A DNA stretch of 36,336 nt from the NCBI GenBank assembly GCA_003157875.1, contig PMKV01000154.1:1-36336 (forward strand), given 5' to 3'. The notes beneath the pieces are model-generated. The model was not told the DNA's origin and searched no databases. It was given only the letters and a program-made list of their open reading frames with translations. The stretch is from Chloroflexota bacterium. GTDB lineage: Bacteria; Chloroflexota; Limnocylindria; Limnocylindrales; CSP1-4. Position 1 is the first letter of the stretch. The number at the start of each line of letters is the position of its first letter. A program made the translations under genes and the position numbers. Shown one piece after another: positions 11,288-26,088 of this stretch.

Positions 11288-11349
11288 CAGGCCAGGCCGG
11301 ACTCCGCCGCAATATCAACGCCAGCGGCGAAGTTGAGGAGGATGGGCCG

Positions 11350-11406
11350 CGCGACCGCCGACCCGCGACCGCCGACCCGCGACCACCGAGCGCGCGACCG
11401 CCGAGC
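11350..11406 (+). repeat. 14-bp tandem repeat, four copies
   Basis: Units of CGCGACCGCCGACC at 11350-11363 and 11364-11377 are identical. A third (11378-11391, two changes, one extra base after it) and a fourth (11393-11406, one change) follow. They lie 60 bp upstream of the deacetylase-fusion start. Nothing else is seen in the remainder of the 429-bp gap (11039-11467). Confidence 0.8.
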
Positions 11407-11455
11407 ATCTGACGAACCCGCTACGGATCGGCGAACCAGAAGGACCGGGACACGC

Positions 11456-11461
11456 CATCAT
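11456..11461 (+). promoter_or_regulatory. -10-like CATCAT of the deacetylase-GNAT gene
   Basis: The hexamer matches the -10 consensus at 4 of 6 positions and ends 6 nt before ATG 11468. No SD sequence is present at that ATG. Confidence 0.3.
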
Positions 11462-11467
11462 TCGGCC

Positions 11468-13324
11468 ATGGCCGGACATCTGGGACGCGGCCGCGACCTG
11501 GGACCGCTCCTCGTCTACGGGCCGCGGTCGATCACGTACGACTTCGGGCCGCGGCATCCGCTCAGTCCCCGGCGCTTCGGGCCGGGGATCGACCTGCTGC
11601 GGGCGGTTGGGGCCGAGCCGGGTCTGGCGCCCGAGCCGGCGACCGACGACCGGCTCGGATGGCTCCACGCGGCCGACTACGTCGCCACGGTCCGACGCTT
11701 CTCGGCCGATCCCGACGGACCACCCCAAGCCGGCATCGGGCCGGGGGACGATCCGGCCTTCGCCGGCATGCACGAGGCGGCCGCCGCGGTGGTCGGAGGC
11801 TCGATCGGTGCCATCGAGGCGATCCTGCGCGGCGAAGTCGATCACGCCTACCACCCGGGCGGCGGCCTGCACCACGCGATGCGGTCGCGGGCGAGTGGCT
11901 TCTGCGTCTACAACGACGTCGCCCTGGCCATCGCGAGAGCCCGGCGGGACGGCCTGCGCGTCCTCTATGTCGATCTCGACGTCCACCACGGCGACGGCGT
12001 CCAGGCCCTCCACTACTCAGACCCGGGCGTCATGACGATCTCATTCCACGAGTCGGGCGGCTCGCTCTTCCCCGGGACGGGATTCCCGGCAGAGCTGGGG
12101 GAGGGGACTGCGGCCGGGACCTCGATCAACGTGCCGTTTGAGCCACTGACCGGTCCGGAGGCCTGGCTGGCCGCTGTGCGGGAGGTGGTCCCGCCGCTCG
12201 CCGCCGCGTTCGGCCCCGATATCGTCGTGAGCCAGCACGGCGCCGACGGCCACTTCTGGGATCCGCTGGCGCACCTCTCGCTGACCACGACGGCGATGGG
12301 CGAGGCGGCCCGACTGGTCGATCGCGTCGCCCATCGGTACGCCGGCGGACGCTGGCTCGCGACAGGTGGCGGGGGTTACGCCGTGTACCGAGTGGTGCCG
12401 AGAGTCTGGGCCCTGACCTGGCTGGCGGGAGCTCACCTCGAGACGCCCGGCCGGCTGCCGGCCGAATGGCGGGCCCGCTGGGAGGGCGATGCCGCTCGCT
12501 GGAACGACTCCCCGCTCCCGGACGAGTTCGAAGACGGTCCGGAGGCGGACGGGATGGTCGGCGCCGGTGGCTCGGCCGGTCTCGCGGGCTATGTCGGCGC
12601 CGCGGCGGGCTACCGAGCCGAGGCGGCGGCGGAGAAGGCGAAGAGGACGGTTCGGCTTGTTCGAACCGTTCTGGTGCCGGCTCTGCTGGGCGTTGCCCGG
12701 GATCGGGGTTGGTGGCGGTTCGACGGACCCTTGCCGGAGAGCCCGACCCGCGCCGCGCTGGCGGCAGAAGCGCGGCCGGCCCGCGGGGAGCCGACCGTCC
12801 TCGCCCCTCTCACGACCGAGACGCTCGAGCGGCTCTCACTCGCTCCGCGCGTCATCGCCCCCGTCGATACGGCTGCCGCGGCCGCCATCCTGCGCGCCGC
12901 GCTTCTGGATGGCGCCGTGGCCGCCGGCGCCGTCATCGGTGAGTGGCTCGTCGGCGTGGCGCTCGCGGTGCCGGGCGAGGTGGAGGGCGTGGATCGGCTG
13001 GTGGCCCTGGGCGTGGCACCGGAGTGGCGGCGGGGCGGCATCGCCGCGGCCTTGTTGCGGGCCCTCGTGGAAGAGCAGGACCGGCGGGGCCGCGCTCTAG
13101 CCGCGCTGCACACCGCCGCCGAGCGCGATCCGATCGACCCGCTGCCCCGGGCGGTGCGCCGGGGAGTGGCCCAAGCGCTGGCAGTGGGCTCCGGTATGAC
13201 GTGTATTCCCGCGCCGCCCCGAGTGCTGGAAGTGGATCCAGAGGCCCTCCTCGCCCTCCGCCTCCCGCCGGGGTCCGGGCCCCAGATCGAAGCTCGCCTC
13301 GCGGAGTGGGCCGCTTCGCTGTAG
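11468..13324 (+). CDS. AcuC-like class I/II deacetylase fused to a GNAT acetyltransferase domain
   Basis: A 618-aa two-domain protein. Residues about 15-340 are a zinc-dependent histone-deacetylase-family domain with all key positions: GGGLHH (His135-His136), DLDVHHGDG (Asp171, His173 zinc ligands), QHGAD (Asp260 third ligand) and GGGGY (catalytic Tyr304). The best-known bacterial relatives are AcuC, which deacetylates acetyl-CoA synthetase, and acetylpolyamine amidohydrolases. Residues about 460-580 are GNAT-like, with VDRLVALGVAPEWRRGGIA containing the R-x-x-G-x-A motif at 521-526. In Bacillus the acetyltransferase AcuA and deacetylase AcuC are separate proteins. The frame is open upstream to 11333, but that part is Arg-rich repeat sequence. 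ATG 11468 is the better start. Confidence 0.88.
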   Translation: MAGHLGRGRDLGPLLVYGPRSITYDFGPRHPLSPRRFGPGIDLLRAVGAEPGLAPEPATDDRLGWLHAADYVATVRRFSADPDGPPQAGIGPGDDPAFAGMHEAAAAVVGGSIGAIEAILRGEVDHAYHPGGGLHHAMRSRASGFCVYNDVALAIARARRDGLRVLYVDLDVHHGDGVQALHYSDPGVMTISFHESGGSLFPGTGFPAELGEGTAAGTSINVPFEPLTGPEAWLAAVREVVPPLAAAFGPDIVVSQHGADGHFWDPLAHLSLTTTAMGEAARLVDRVAHRYAGGRWLATGGGGYAVYRVVPRVWALTWLAGAHLETPGRLPAEWRARWEGDAARWNDSPLPDEFEDGPEADGMVGAGGSAGLAGYVGAAAGYRAEAAAEKAKRTVRLVRTVLVPALLGVARDRGWWRFDGPLPESPTRAALAAEARPARGEPTVLAPLTTETLERLSLAPRVIAPVDTAAAAAILRAALLDGAVAAGAVIGEWLVGVALAVPGEVEGVDRLVALGVAPEWRRGGIAAALLRALVEEQDRRGRALAALHTAAERDPIDPLPRAVRRGVAQALAVGSGMTCIPAPPRVLEVDPEALLALRLPPGSGPQIEARLAEWAASL

Positions 13325-14358: not shown

Positions 14359-16974
14359 ATGAGCAGGGACCCGATCATCGAGCGGTCGCCCCGATATGAC
14401 TGGCGTCCACTGCTCGTTCGGACAGCCGCTCACGCCGGGTTTGGGCTCGCCCTGCTTTGCATGGTCATCTGGGCGTTAGCGGCGGCTGCCGGGCTTCCCA
14501 TGCTCGGTGGACGCGACGCGGCGGTCATGGGCATCGGGATCGCGGCCGGTTGGGGTGTTACGTTTGCCGTCTTCCGGGTGACCGTATCGCGCCCGCTGAC
14601 TCGAATCACCGCTGCCGCCGAGGCGCTCGAGTCGCGGGACACGGTGGCCTTTTCTGACACGCTGGCTGCCGTGGCGCAGGGCGACCTCACCAATCGCCTC
14701 GAGTTCCAGGTTCGACCCATCAGCCTTGGCTCGGCCTGCGCGCCGGAAGTCGGTCACCTGGGCCTGGTCGTCAACGGGATCGCGGCGCGGCTCGCCGACG
14801 GCGCCGCCCAGCTGAACACCGTGACCGACGAAGCTTGCCGGCGGTTGTTCTACGTAGGTCCCGACGGCTATCTGCAGGGCCAGATCTGCGCCGAGCAGAT
14901 GGGCCGTTCCCTGGGCGGCCGAGGTCAGGTGGTCATCATGTCGAACAACCTGCACCACGCCGGCCTCGAGGTTCGCCGGAGGGGGTTCGAGGCCATCCTG
15001 CGTGAGAAGTACCCCGACGTCGAAATCGCGGATGTGGTCGAGTGCGCGGACGAGGGCGAAGCTCTGCGCGCCGACGCCGCGGCCGTACTGAAGAGGCATT
15101 CCCGCCTGGCGGGCATCTACGAAACAGGCCCCGCGAGCGGCCTGGCCATGGCCGTCGAAGACGCCGGAATGGCGGGCCGGATCACGGTCATCTGCCACGA
15201 CCTCACCGATCTCGTGATGCCGTACGTTTCAAAGGGCGTCATCTCCGCGACCATCGGGCAGGACCCCTACGCCCAGGGCCACGATGCGGCAATCCACCTG
15301 TTCAACCACCTGGCCGCAGGCTGGCAGCCGGTCGACTCGCGCCTCCTGACCTCGATGGATCTCGTCACGGCAGCCAACTTCGAGTCGTTCTGGCAAACGG
15401 GCAAAGGGGTCATCCAGTCTCAGGCGACGATCGAGAGGCGACCGAGGCCGATCCAGGCTTCGACGCGAAGATTGCGCATCGCCATCCTCGGCATAGAGGA
15501 CAGCGTGTTCTGGCACCCCATCCGGGACGGAGTCCTGGATGCCGCCGCCGAGCTCAAACCGTACGGCGCCGACGTGGAGTGGATCCTTCCCGAACCGGAC
15601 AAGGCGTTCCATCTGTCGATCCGGGCCGCGGCCATCGAGTCACTGGCACGTGCGGGCTACGACGCCATCGCAACCCCGATCAACGACACGGGCCTGGTGG
15701 CGTCGATCAACAGGGCGGTGGCCGCGGGTGTCCCCGTCGCGACCTTCAACTCGGAGTCGTCGAGCCTGCGCGGCCTGATGGACTCGCTCAGTCATCGCGC
15801 CGGGCGTCTCATGGTCGTGAGCGACGATCTGGTAGCCTCGGCGCAGTCGTCCGGGATTGCGACACGCGAGATCGCAGAGACGGTTTCGCGGATGGCGAAG
15901 GCCGCCGGCGACGAAGCCGCCGCCGTGACTCAGGCCAATGCCAGCATTCAGCTCATCGCGGATTCGGTCGACGCAATCGCCGATGGGGCCCGTGATCAAG
16001 CACGGGCCGCGGACAGCTTGTCGCAGACCGCAACCCACATCGCCCGAGCGGTCCAAGACGCCGAGTCGAGCTCGCAGACCGTCACGGCCGCGACCGCCCA
16101 GGCCGTGGCGACCGCGGAGCGCGGTTCGGATGCGCTTCGTGAAACGCTCAAGCAGATGGAGTCGATCGAGCGGGCCGTCGATTCATCGGCTGCGATCATC
16201 GGCGACACGAACGCGCATGCCCAGCAGATCGGCGAGATCGTGGCCGCGATCGAAGACATTGCCGCGCAAACCAACCTGCTGGCACTGAACGCCGCCATCG
16301 AAGCCGCCAGGGCGGGTGAGCAGGGCAAGGGCTTTGCGGTCGTCGCGAGCGAGGTCCGAAAGCTTGCGGAGAAGTCGGCCGTTGCCACCAAAGAGATCGG
16401 GGCGATCATCACAACCGTCCAGGCGAGTGCCATGAATGCCGCCGCGGCGATGGACGCCGCGATGATGAAGGTCCACGAGGGTTCGGCCCTGGCCCGGAAC
16501 TCGGGTCAGGCGCTGGGCGAGCTGCTCGAGGCTGCCGTGACGACGCAGCGCCAGACCACCGCGATGGTCGATGCCAATCAGGCAGTCGCGGGCGTTATGG
16601 AGAATCTCACCACGGCCATCGAACAGGTCTCCGCCGTCATCTCGGGCAACATGGATAGATCCGAGACTGCCGCCGCCGGCGTCCGGGAGGCGCTGCGGGT
16701 AGTCGAAAATGTAGCCGCGATCAGTCAGGAGAACGCCGCGGCGGCGGAGCGGGTGGCGGCCACCACGGTGGAGGTGTCGAAGCAGGCCCAGGAGGTCAAC
16801 GACATCGCGTCCGCCGTAACCGGCATAGCCCGAGAGATAGAGGGCTCCACAGCCAGGTTCAAGATCGAGCGCGATGATGAAGAGCGCCAGGCGGAGCCGG
16901 GACGGGCGGTCCAACCCGCCGCCATGGAAGGGGCCAATCGGGCCAAACCCGGCGATAAGCGTCGCGCCGCCTGA
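14359..16974 (+). CDS. Methyl-accepting chemoreceptor with permuted periplasmic-binding-protein-like sensor region
   Basis: An 871-aa signalling protein. Two TM helices (about 24-48 and 53-76) with almost no loop between them are followed by a HAMP-like stretch (77-150; VSRPL, GDL, PEVGHL). Residues 162-346 match the C-terminal two thirds of a sugar-binding type I PBP ([50 protein letters not shown]). Residues 370-475 match the N-terminal third ([44 protein letters not shown]), in reversed order. The MCP signalling hairpin occupies about 500-830 with the conserved tip near 632-660 ([23 protein letters not shown]). Topology places the sensor in the cytoplasm. ATG 14359 has GGGGTGA 4 nt upstream. 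No other che genes are in view. Confidence 0.9.
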
Positions 16975-24699: not shown

Positions 24700-24708
24700 A
24701 TGCGGCCA

Positions 24709-26088
24709 ATGAATCGCTCCATCATCTCCATGCTCCTGGCGACGTTCGTGCTGCGCGTCAGCACGGCGATCACCGGCATCATGCTCGTCTTCCTCATCGA
24801 CGAGATGACCCGTAATCGAGGCACGGGTCCGGGGACGATCTCGTTGCTCACCGGCGGGTTCTACGCCACCGAGCTGGTCGGCGCCATCCTCTTCGGCGTG
24901 CTGGCCGACAAGTACGGCCGTAAGGTGATCATGCTGCTCGGGCCGTTGTTCGGTGGCGTTGCCGTCTTCATGACGGGTCTAACCACGCACCTGCCCGTGC
25001 TGTTCGTGACTCGCCTCCTGGAAGGCAGCTCCACGGCCGCCTCCATTCCCTCGACACTCGGTTTCATCGCCGCCGAAACGGCCGAAGACGAGGGGCTGCG
25101 CGGCAAGGTCGTCTCCCTGTTCGAGCTCGTGTCTCTCGGCGGCATGCTTGCCGTCGGCCCGGCCTTCGGCAGCATCCTGTGGGAGAACCTCGGCCGGTCG
25201 GCGTTCTTTCTCAACTGCGTCTTCTACGCCCTGGCGCTCTGCTTGTACGCCTACGGAGTCAGCGAGGTGCCGCGCGATCGCCGGGCCGACATATCCGCCC
25301 CGGCCGTTCCTGTCGATCGCGGCGTCGCGCTTGCTCGCCTGTGGCGCATCGTGACGAGCCGCAGAGTCCTGCTCTTCGCGCCTACATGGCTGGCCATCAA
25401 TGCCATCCTGGGGCTGTGGGCCCTCCAGGCGCCGCTTCTGCTGAAGGGCAACATCCAGGATACGAGCCAGTTCCTGATGAAAGGCGTCTCGCCCTCGACC
25501 ATCGGCTTCGGCGAGGCGATCCTGGCCGTGGTCTTTGGGGCCGGCCTGCTGTTCTGGGGGCTCGTGTACGCGCGATTCCGGCGCACCACCATGATCCTGC
25601 TCGGAGTCGGCGCCTTCGTCGCGATGACATGCGACGTCCTTGCGATCAACCACCTCGGTGGCACCTCGACGACCCTGCTCATCGCGCTCGGCGGCGTGGG
25701 GATGGTGGCGTTGTTCGTGATGTCCGGCGCCACGCCGGCCGCGCTGGGTCTGCTCGCCGACGTCAGCGAGGGCTTCGAAGAGGACCGCAGCGCGATCATG
25801 GGTATGTATTCGGTCTTCCTCGGGGTCGGCCAGGTGATCGGGGCCGCCGTTGGCGGGCTCGCGGCATCGTGGAAGGGGATCGACGGGCTCATCGTTGCCA
25901 CGGCAGGCCTGCTCGCGGTCGGAATCCTGGCCCTTATGAACCTGCGGGCCCACGAAGGCGCAATCCTTGACGGCATGGTCCATCACGGCGCACCCGTCAC
26001 TTTGGGCGACTCGCTGCGAGGTACGCTCTCCATGGCCGGTTCGCGGCAGCCGGCGCCGGCCGAGGCCGCAGCCAAGGAGGAGCGATGA
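24709..26088 (+). CDS. MFS transporter
   Basis: A 459-aa transporter with about 12 TM helices. Helix 1 is MLLATFVLRVSTAITGIMLVF, the loop 2-3 signature is GVLADKYGRKVIM (the classic G-x-x-x-D-x-x-G-R-K/R motif), and FVTRLLEGSSTAASIPSTLGFIA lies in helix 4. Direction and substrate cannot be read from sequence. ATG 24700 is three codons upstream. The stop overlaps the degV start by 4 nt (ATGA), so the two are translationally coupled. That pairing with a fatty-acid-binding protein may hint at lipid-like cargo. Confidence 0.9.
   Translation: MNRSIISMLLATFVLRVSTAITGIMLVFLIDEMTRNRGTGPGTISLLTGGFYATELVGAILFGVLADKYGRKVIMLLGPLFGGVAVFMTGLTTHLPVLFVTRLLEGSSTAASIPSTLGFIAAETAEDEGLRGKVVSLFELVSLGGMLAVGPAFGSILWENLGRSAFFLNCVFYALALCLYAYGVSEVPRDRRADISAPAVPVDRGVALARLWRIVTSRRVLLFAPTWLAINAILGLWALQAPLLLKGNIQDTSQFLMKGVSPSTIGFGEAILAVVFGAGLLFWGLVYARFRRTTMILLGVGAFVAMTCDVLAINHLGGTSTTLLIALGGVGMVALFVMSGATPAALGLLADVSEGFEEDRSAIMGMYSVFLGVGQVIGAAVGGLAASWKGIDGLIVATAGLLAVGILALMNLRAHEGAILDGMVHHGAPVTLGDSLRGTLSMAGSRQPAPAEAAAKEER

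Follow-up and report, generated by a model that had tools for sequence, protein, structure and literature searches.

We examined a 36,336-nucleotide stretch of DNA from a Chloroflexota bacterium (the window) and consider it likely that it encodes a membrane-anchored chemoreceptor (TM1-TM2-HAMP-like) in which a circularly permuted, cytoplasmic sugar-binding sensor is inserted before the MCP hairpin. The 871-residue receptor is encoded by an open ORF (14359-16974, +); its ATG at 14359 is preceded by a ribosome-binding stretch that appears plausible on inspection by eye, and an alternative TTG start lies up to 30 codons upstream. The receptor is divided as follows:

14359..16974, + strand: whole receptor gene, 871 aa (ORF, Pfam, full-length model)
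14434..14502, + strand: transmembrane helix 1, residues ~26-48 (hydropathy; model helix 15-43)
14518..14580, + strand: transmembrane helix 2, residues ~54-74 (hydropathy; model helix 51-106)
14581..14826, + strand: HAMP-like stretch, residues 75-156 (models: helix 51-106, which extends TM2, and helix 129-155)
14830..15399, + strand: rear part of a type I binding protein, residues 158-347, from N-lobe strand 5 to the C-terminus (Pfam, phmmer, HMM)
15400..15462, + strand: linker, residues 348-368, from the canonical C-terminus to the canonical N-terminus (HMM borders, linker comparison)
15463..15762, + strand: front part of a type I binding protein, residues 369-468, N-lobe strands 1-4 (phmmer, HMM)
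15766..16863, + strand: exit helix and MCP coiled-coil hairpin, residues 470-835 (model; first helix 470-560)
within 15766..16863, + strand: MCP hairpin tip, about residues 644-652 (tip motif position)
16093..16638, + strand: MCPsignal domain, residues 579-760 (Pfam)

In the model, the two transmembrane helices are separated by residues 44-50 only, about seven residues, and the receptor thus seems to have no room for a periplasmic domain. Pfam recognises MCPsignal at residues 579-760 with 126.9 bits against a curated cut-off of 34.6, and Peripla_BP_4 with 112.1 bits across two stretches, the better of which aligns residues 158-314 with profile positions 91-250. Pfam reported no GGDEF domain and, at E 1, no DNA-binding HTH of the LacI family in the window receptor. 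The original prediction, made from the sequence alone, had also described a HAMP-like stretch: two HAMP-like helices do appear in the models, and Pfam reports no HAMP in the window protein. Three lines bear out its placement of the binding domain between this stretch and the MCP helices: the sequence itself, the 38 homologous loci, and an AlphaFold2 model of high confidence.

The binding-protein domain is present in two pieces of reversed order. In phmmer searches, the segment 163-348 aligned with residues 99-254 of a Thermotoga sugar-binding protein (3c6q, E 4.9e-20; 2qvc, E 1.1e-19). The segment 368-477 aligned with residues 3-94 of 2qvc (E 1e-4); the best match of this front part was CbpD (7x0p, E 7.4e-5). 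Overall, the rear part of a type I (Peripla_BP_4) binding protein occupies residues ~152-346 and the front part ~367-468. We also built an HMM from 10 canonical-order sequences of the fetched loci, nine binding proteins and the LacI-type regulator L111, none of them permuted. Against this HMM the native sequence gave two partial domains (187.7 and 82.2 bits), with profile positions 172-367 ahead of 79-177, so that the canonical N-to-C order is not kept. When the halves were put back in order, the same HMM found one domain spanning positions 79-367 with 270.7 bits; none of 20 shuffled controls of identical composition scored above -1.5 bits, the top value among the 10 that were reported at all; the other 10 missed the E 1000 limit for reporting. 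The restored sequence also matched residues 3-254 of 2qvc in one stretch (E 2.1e-29). Judged by these alignments, the domain is almost certainly a circular permutation, as originally proposed from the look of the two segments. By phmmer and HMM, each segment matched the same fold and only its complementary part of it, and we reject on this evidence the idea that either is a full domain or a different fold. The limits first given for the segments (162-346 and 370-475) hold in their order, and the linker is now placed at ~348-368.

Where was the fold opened? We assign strand 5 to the N-lobe and take the lobe borders and contact residues to be those of RbsB, with the first hinge crossing presumably coming next after the entering strand. 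In the ordinary relative L072, the stretch across the N-lobe loop between strands 4 and 5 is ...VATFNSETAEPNKRLFFVGAD..., and it is this loop that is cut in the window protein. In the full-length model, the four front strands come last (372-377, 404-409, 436-439 and 460-463). The models also define how the chain enters and leaves: the HAMP-like helix 129-155 leads into strand 164-167, and strand 460-463 leads into a helix that starts at 470 and runs on into the MCP. The two parts are complementary, as had been claimed, and the cut falls one strand earlier than the first hinge crossing where it had been placed, in the strand 4/5 loop (with lobe borders as in RbsB). We also compared the linkers with the mature N-terminus of the sister binding proteins described below. 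Only 8 of 39 comparisons fell below p 0.05 (shuffling, uncorrected), the window linker giving p 0.68, and the linker as a relic of a mature N-terminus is thus a weak proposition.

AlphaFold2, run on residues 81-531 with 39 sequences, returned a pLDDT of 87.9 and a pTM of 0.78, with the binding domain mostly above 90; for the full-length protein the values were 79.4 and 0.62, with the order of elements unchanged. Foldseek returned 1755 matches. Among the best 50, many were ordinary binding proteins that aligned with an rmsd of 1.5-2.0 over 175-183 columns (for example 6gq0 among the matches listed, 1.7 over 181 columns), and some covered about 180 columns at an rmsd of 3-4. Where the alignments to ordinary binding proteins lengthened, the rmsd rose up to 17, as expected of a permutant. 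The longest alignments in the same 50 were to four chains of TpMglB-2, a naturally permuted protein (355-382 columns, TM 0.37-0.47 by query, rmsd 5.3-8.3, identity 13-14%). On the basis of confidence scores and Foldseek tables, the two parts may pack as one bilobed domain.

The permuted order is shared by a family. Scanning genome_contigs gave 107 relatives; of the best 80, 38 carried the permuted order in one ORF, 40 the normal order, and 2 were undecidable (L078, L101). As recorded, the bins of the permuted loci are labelled Chloroflexi, Brevefilum, KSB1, Acidobacteria, Bacteroidetes, Spirochaetales or unclassified. Within the same class, 15 of 177 genomes matched the module at E 1e-30, all 15 among the 21 listed genomes of the window's genus; they hold 25 matches, each covering at least 348 of 360 query residues. 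The window's own genome has two copies of the module, the second lying in a receptor 61% identical to the first (L021, G000:C115:18500-23000) that shares its contig with two flagellins and a CheW-domain gene. The permuted order is also found on a finished plasmid, that of Leptolinea sp. HRD-7, in hrd7_33420 (BCY19493.1, annotated 'hypothetical protein'); of 268 plasmid records matched by the window module, this one alone covers at least 80% of the query. The phage collection gave one match, partial and weak.

We built a tree and residue tables of 83 rows, including 39 permuted ones (the window protein and the 38 further loci) and omitting minus-strand ORFs, L098, whose front part did not pass the length filter, and two loci with no front part on their contig (L078, L101). 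With midpoint rooting, all 39 permuted rows fell on one side of a branch (support 100/99), next to four ordinary binding proteins (L072, L075, L077 and L074; support 99/95), the first three from bins labelled Chloroflexota and L074 from one labelled Bacillota. Pfam finds Peripla_BP_4 in all 39 permuted members, MCPsignal in 33, GGDEF in 6 and, at E 0.01, HAMP in 9. The six GGDEF proteins (L051, L060, L061, L063, L064 and L065) nest within the permuted group and have the TM-HAMP-permuted module followed by GGDEF in place of MCP. Judged from this domain content, the permuted domain is a portable input module that serves MCP or GGDEF outputs.

The distance between module and output is regular. 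Of 29 proteins measured, 17 have the MCP tip motif 178 residues from the conserved E466 and 11 have it at 150 (a count without L037, L049, L050 and L070, which gave no motif match, and without the six GGDEF proteins). The difference, 28, is exactly four heptads, and one spacing or the other is found in 28/29, the exception being the long-branched L076 with 153. From the E466 position to the start of GGDEF there are 32 residues in 6/6. MCPs in general change length by heptads. The same heptad steps here suggest an exit helix joined in register to the coiled coil and not by a loose link. The receptor frames of L037:5500-7779 and L044:5536-7866 are interrupted where the conserved MCP tip contains an ambiguous base, in what looks like an assembly gap.

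On which side of the membrane does the module lie? MCP and GGDEF domains work in the cytoplasm, and hydropathy detected no transmembrane segment between module and output in the window protein and the 38 loci; the one transmembrane call in L055 (750-768) is past the MCP tip. L071 and L079 have no membrane helix at all by hydropathy, and L069 also lacks one, but is truncated by the contig end. At the hydropathy threshold used, 8 of the 38 loci have one membrane helix only and 3 have none, and by this crude test the two-helix topology is thus not uniform. From these predictions, we have little doubt that the module is cytoplasmic, in agreement with the side first assigned to it.

A module that faces the periplasm, like ordinary binding domains, is accordingly very improbable. 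In its favour are the single-helix calls and a review of c-di-GMP sensing that, in the passages at hand, describes domains of this clan as periplasmic (PMC8846402); against it, no predicted helix separates the module from its cytoplasmic output, and L071 and L079 show no membrane helix at all. The probability that the whole architecture arose by misassembly or gene fusion is close to nil. The source is indeed a draft genome of 185 contigs, and the frames of L037 and L044 are interrupted as described, but the module recurs in 15 of the 21 same-genus genomes listed, in bins of other phylum labels and on the finished Leptolinea plasmid, which refutes an artefact of one draft genome.

The chemoreceptor with a cytoplasmic permuted domain retains a candidate ligand cleft made from both halves. 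At positions that we take to correspond to the ligand contacts of ribose-binding protein, R206, D281 and E466 are invariant in 39/39 permuted members, F384 is kept in 38/39, N464, Q301 and W385 in 37/39 each, and D169 in all 38 rows that have a letter there. E466 is common to the sister proteins (4/4), the Clostridial group having Asp (27/27). Two positions depart from the sister proteins: (i) H280, the residue before D281, is His in 39/39 where the sister binding proteins have Phe or Tyr; and (ii) the Asn of their N-P-F-W motif is mostly replaced (S in 19/39, N in 6/39). These two changes imply that the ligand is probably unlike the ancestor's. The candidate cleft is probably functional, and members of the permuted family probably have a common ligand chemistry, distinct from that of the ancestor. 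On this conservation, sensing of a small molecule is a probable role for the module, and a sugar-like ligand, suggested by the conserved cleft positions, is somewhat favoured.

What might the ligand be? Glucose or a glucose phosphate is a weak first guess, made because, among solved structures, the nearest is that of a glucose-binding protein and because a gene for a YihX-like protein (alpha-glucose-1-phosphate phosphatase) follows the receptor on the same strand at L052:6386, L053:4841, L058:8270 and L069:1828. As L052 and L053 are nearly identical, these are about three independent cases. For the three genes scanned (L053, L058 and L069), the best model was glucose-1-phosphatase at 78-104 bits, well under its cut-off of 295; for the L058 protein, structures of YihX were matched at E 2e-20. 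The sister proteins L075, L077 and L074 adjoin CUT2-like ABC genes. At L075:1396-6968 we observed genes for a CUT2-like ATPase, a weak mutarotase match, and creatininase/IolN-like, MtaA/CmuA-like and corrinoid-protein-like proteins, and at L077:4641-12045 a CUT2-like permease and an MtaA/CmuA-like gene; such neighbours perhaps allow a methylated sugar or cyclitol to be taken up and demethylated. As clues to the ligand, the YihX-like and the CUT2/methyltransferase-like neighbours are leads only: none of the gene clusters examined at the permuted loci indicates one ligand across the family, and the ten window ORFs scanned showed no link to sugar sensing except a possible sugar/MFS transporter at 24700-26085. 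Upstream of the receptor, 11333-13324 (+) encodes a 663-aa protein with a histone-deacetylase-family domain. Adjoining another permuted receptor, L041:8169-11384 encodes a hybrid histidine kinase; the match of its N-terminal part is to sugar-binding regulators of the LacI/RbsR type.

The permuted domain could be real and no longer sense a metabolite, binding a partner protein or just stiffening the receptor. No ligand is known for it, the two near-cleft positions differ from those of the sister binding proteins, and its cytoplasmic location takes it out of ABC transport; we nevertheless regard this as unlikely, because 37-39 of 39 divergent members conserve the candidate contacts of the two halves and because one module with two outputs fits an input sensor. 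Less likely still is a domain-swapped cleft, in which the front part of one chain would complete the rear part of the other in the receptor dimer. MCPs are dimers, the 21-residue linker could reach, and a swap is compatible with the monomer prediction; against this, AlphaFold2 folds the domain confidently from a single chain, and a swap is unnecessary since entry and exit are on neighbouring strands by the MglB strand order 2-1-3-4-5-6 given in the matching passages of PMC4990184.

How would a single-chain cytoplasmic sensor signal? In the reading that we favour, a type I binding protein has been opened in the short strand 4/5 loop of the N-lobe, beside the first hinge crossing and the ligand-contact positions, and its old termini have been joined through the linker of about 21 residues. 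As a consequence of this cut, the incoming HAMP helix enters strand 5, and strand 4 passes directly into the helix of the MCP. We propose that the cleft is closed by a sugar or sugar-like metabolite of the cytoplasm. The hinge motion would then shift or rotate the exit helix against the entry helix and so alter the control of CheA or, in the GGDEF members, cyclase activity. Because entry adjoins the hinge and exit lies four residues past a contact residue, closure could alter the relation of the HAMP and MCP (or GGDEF) helices. The connectivity comes from sequence and model, and to the coupling of cleft closure to output we give an even chance. The ancestor of the module may have been an ordinary ABC sugar-binding protein of the kind seen in the four sister-group proteins, rearranged probably through tandem duplication and trimming. 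The window's genome contains flagellins and two CheW-domain matches, which makes taxis possible.

The closest known permuted protein is TpMglB-2 (Tp0684) of Treponema pallidum, a naturally circularly permuted type I sugar-binding protein of 'Type Ic / Cluster Bc' according to the passages of PMC4990184 that we matched. As described there, it shares with the window module the type I sugar-binding fold and the displacement of the first N-lobe strands to the C-terminal end; its cut, however, lies between N-lobe strands 3 and 4, with three strands last, whereas that of the window protein lies between strands 4 and 5, with four last. TpMglB-2 is a tethered periplasmic lipoprotein, probably part of an ABC transporter, for which the same passages describe no signalling domain (PMC4990184), in contrast to the cytoplasmic window module with its MCP output. 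The Thermotoga maritima glucose-binding protein (2h3h, 2qvc, 3c6q), the best solved match for the rear part and the restored order and a close second for the front part, differs in its canonical order and, by its PDB names, is a periplasmic ABC-transport protein. The window receptor resembles methyl-accepting chemotaxis proteins in its two transmembrane helices, HAMP-like helices and MCP hairpin, and differs from other MCPs in that a binding domain interrupts the HAMP-to-MCP path inside the cell; MCPs are ordinarily served by such folds from the outer side of the membrane. LacI-family regulators use a cytoplasmic sugar-binding domain of the same fold as an intracellular sensor and, unlike the window receptor, have the canonical order and a DNA-binding output. 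An engineered counterpart uses GltI, a type II binding protein. In R-ncp-iGluSnFR1, permuted GltI is inserted in an output protein and binding alters the output; as far as the matching text of PMC6335823 goes, that construct differs in being man-made and in having a fluorescent output.

Among the matches listed in the open-access PMC literature, we found no receptor with the permuted order, and the matching passages of PMC4990184, PMC12268683, PMC8547431, PMC6335823, PMC11237719 and PMC8846402 describe none; this agrees with the initial statement that no such receptor was known, the periplasmic and differently cut Tp0684 being the nearest case. We lean towards an apparently undescribed modular sensor family, in which a type I protein cut beside its hinge and contacts would act as an allosteric joint from HAMP to MCP or cyclase, steer cells by intracellular sugar and form a natural counterpart of engineered switches. 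If so, the type I fold has a second natural cut point for permutation besides that of TpMglB-2, the one case that we found in print. The permutation would bring both ends of the clamshell to one spot beside the hinge, allowing the sensor to interrupt a signalling helix, and would thus have an obvious use. Binding-protein domains would also extend to cytoplasmic chemoreception and c-di-GMP signalling, and the MCP and GGDEF forms, side by side, make the coupling directly testable.

Clostridial MCPs resemble the window receptor in carrying Peripla_BP_4 on a two-TM MCP, behind a cytoplasmic signalling domain, but have the canonical order, place the domain after the MCP hairpin and form a separate branch of the tree. 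Clostridia-type bins contributed 28 ORFs of more than 600 aa with a normal-order C-terminal binding domain (L082-L093, L095, L097-L100, L103-L107, L109, L110 and L112-L115). No plasmid match to one of these receptors (L084) covered more than 80% of the query. In the three proteins scanned with Pfam (L084, L091 and L098), MCPsignal is ahead of the binding domain, which amounts to a second way of putting such a domain inside a chemoreceptor. The set includes proteins of the cultured Caloramator quimbayensis and Thermoclostridium caenicola.
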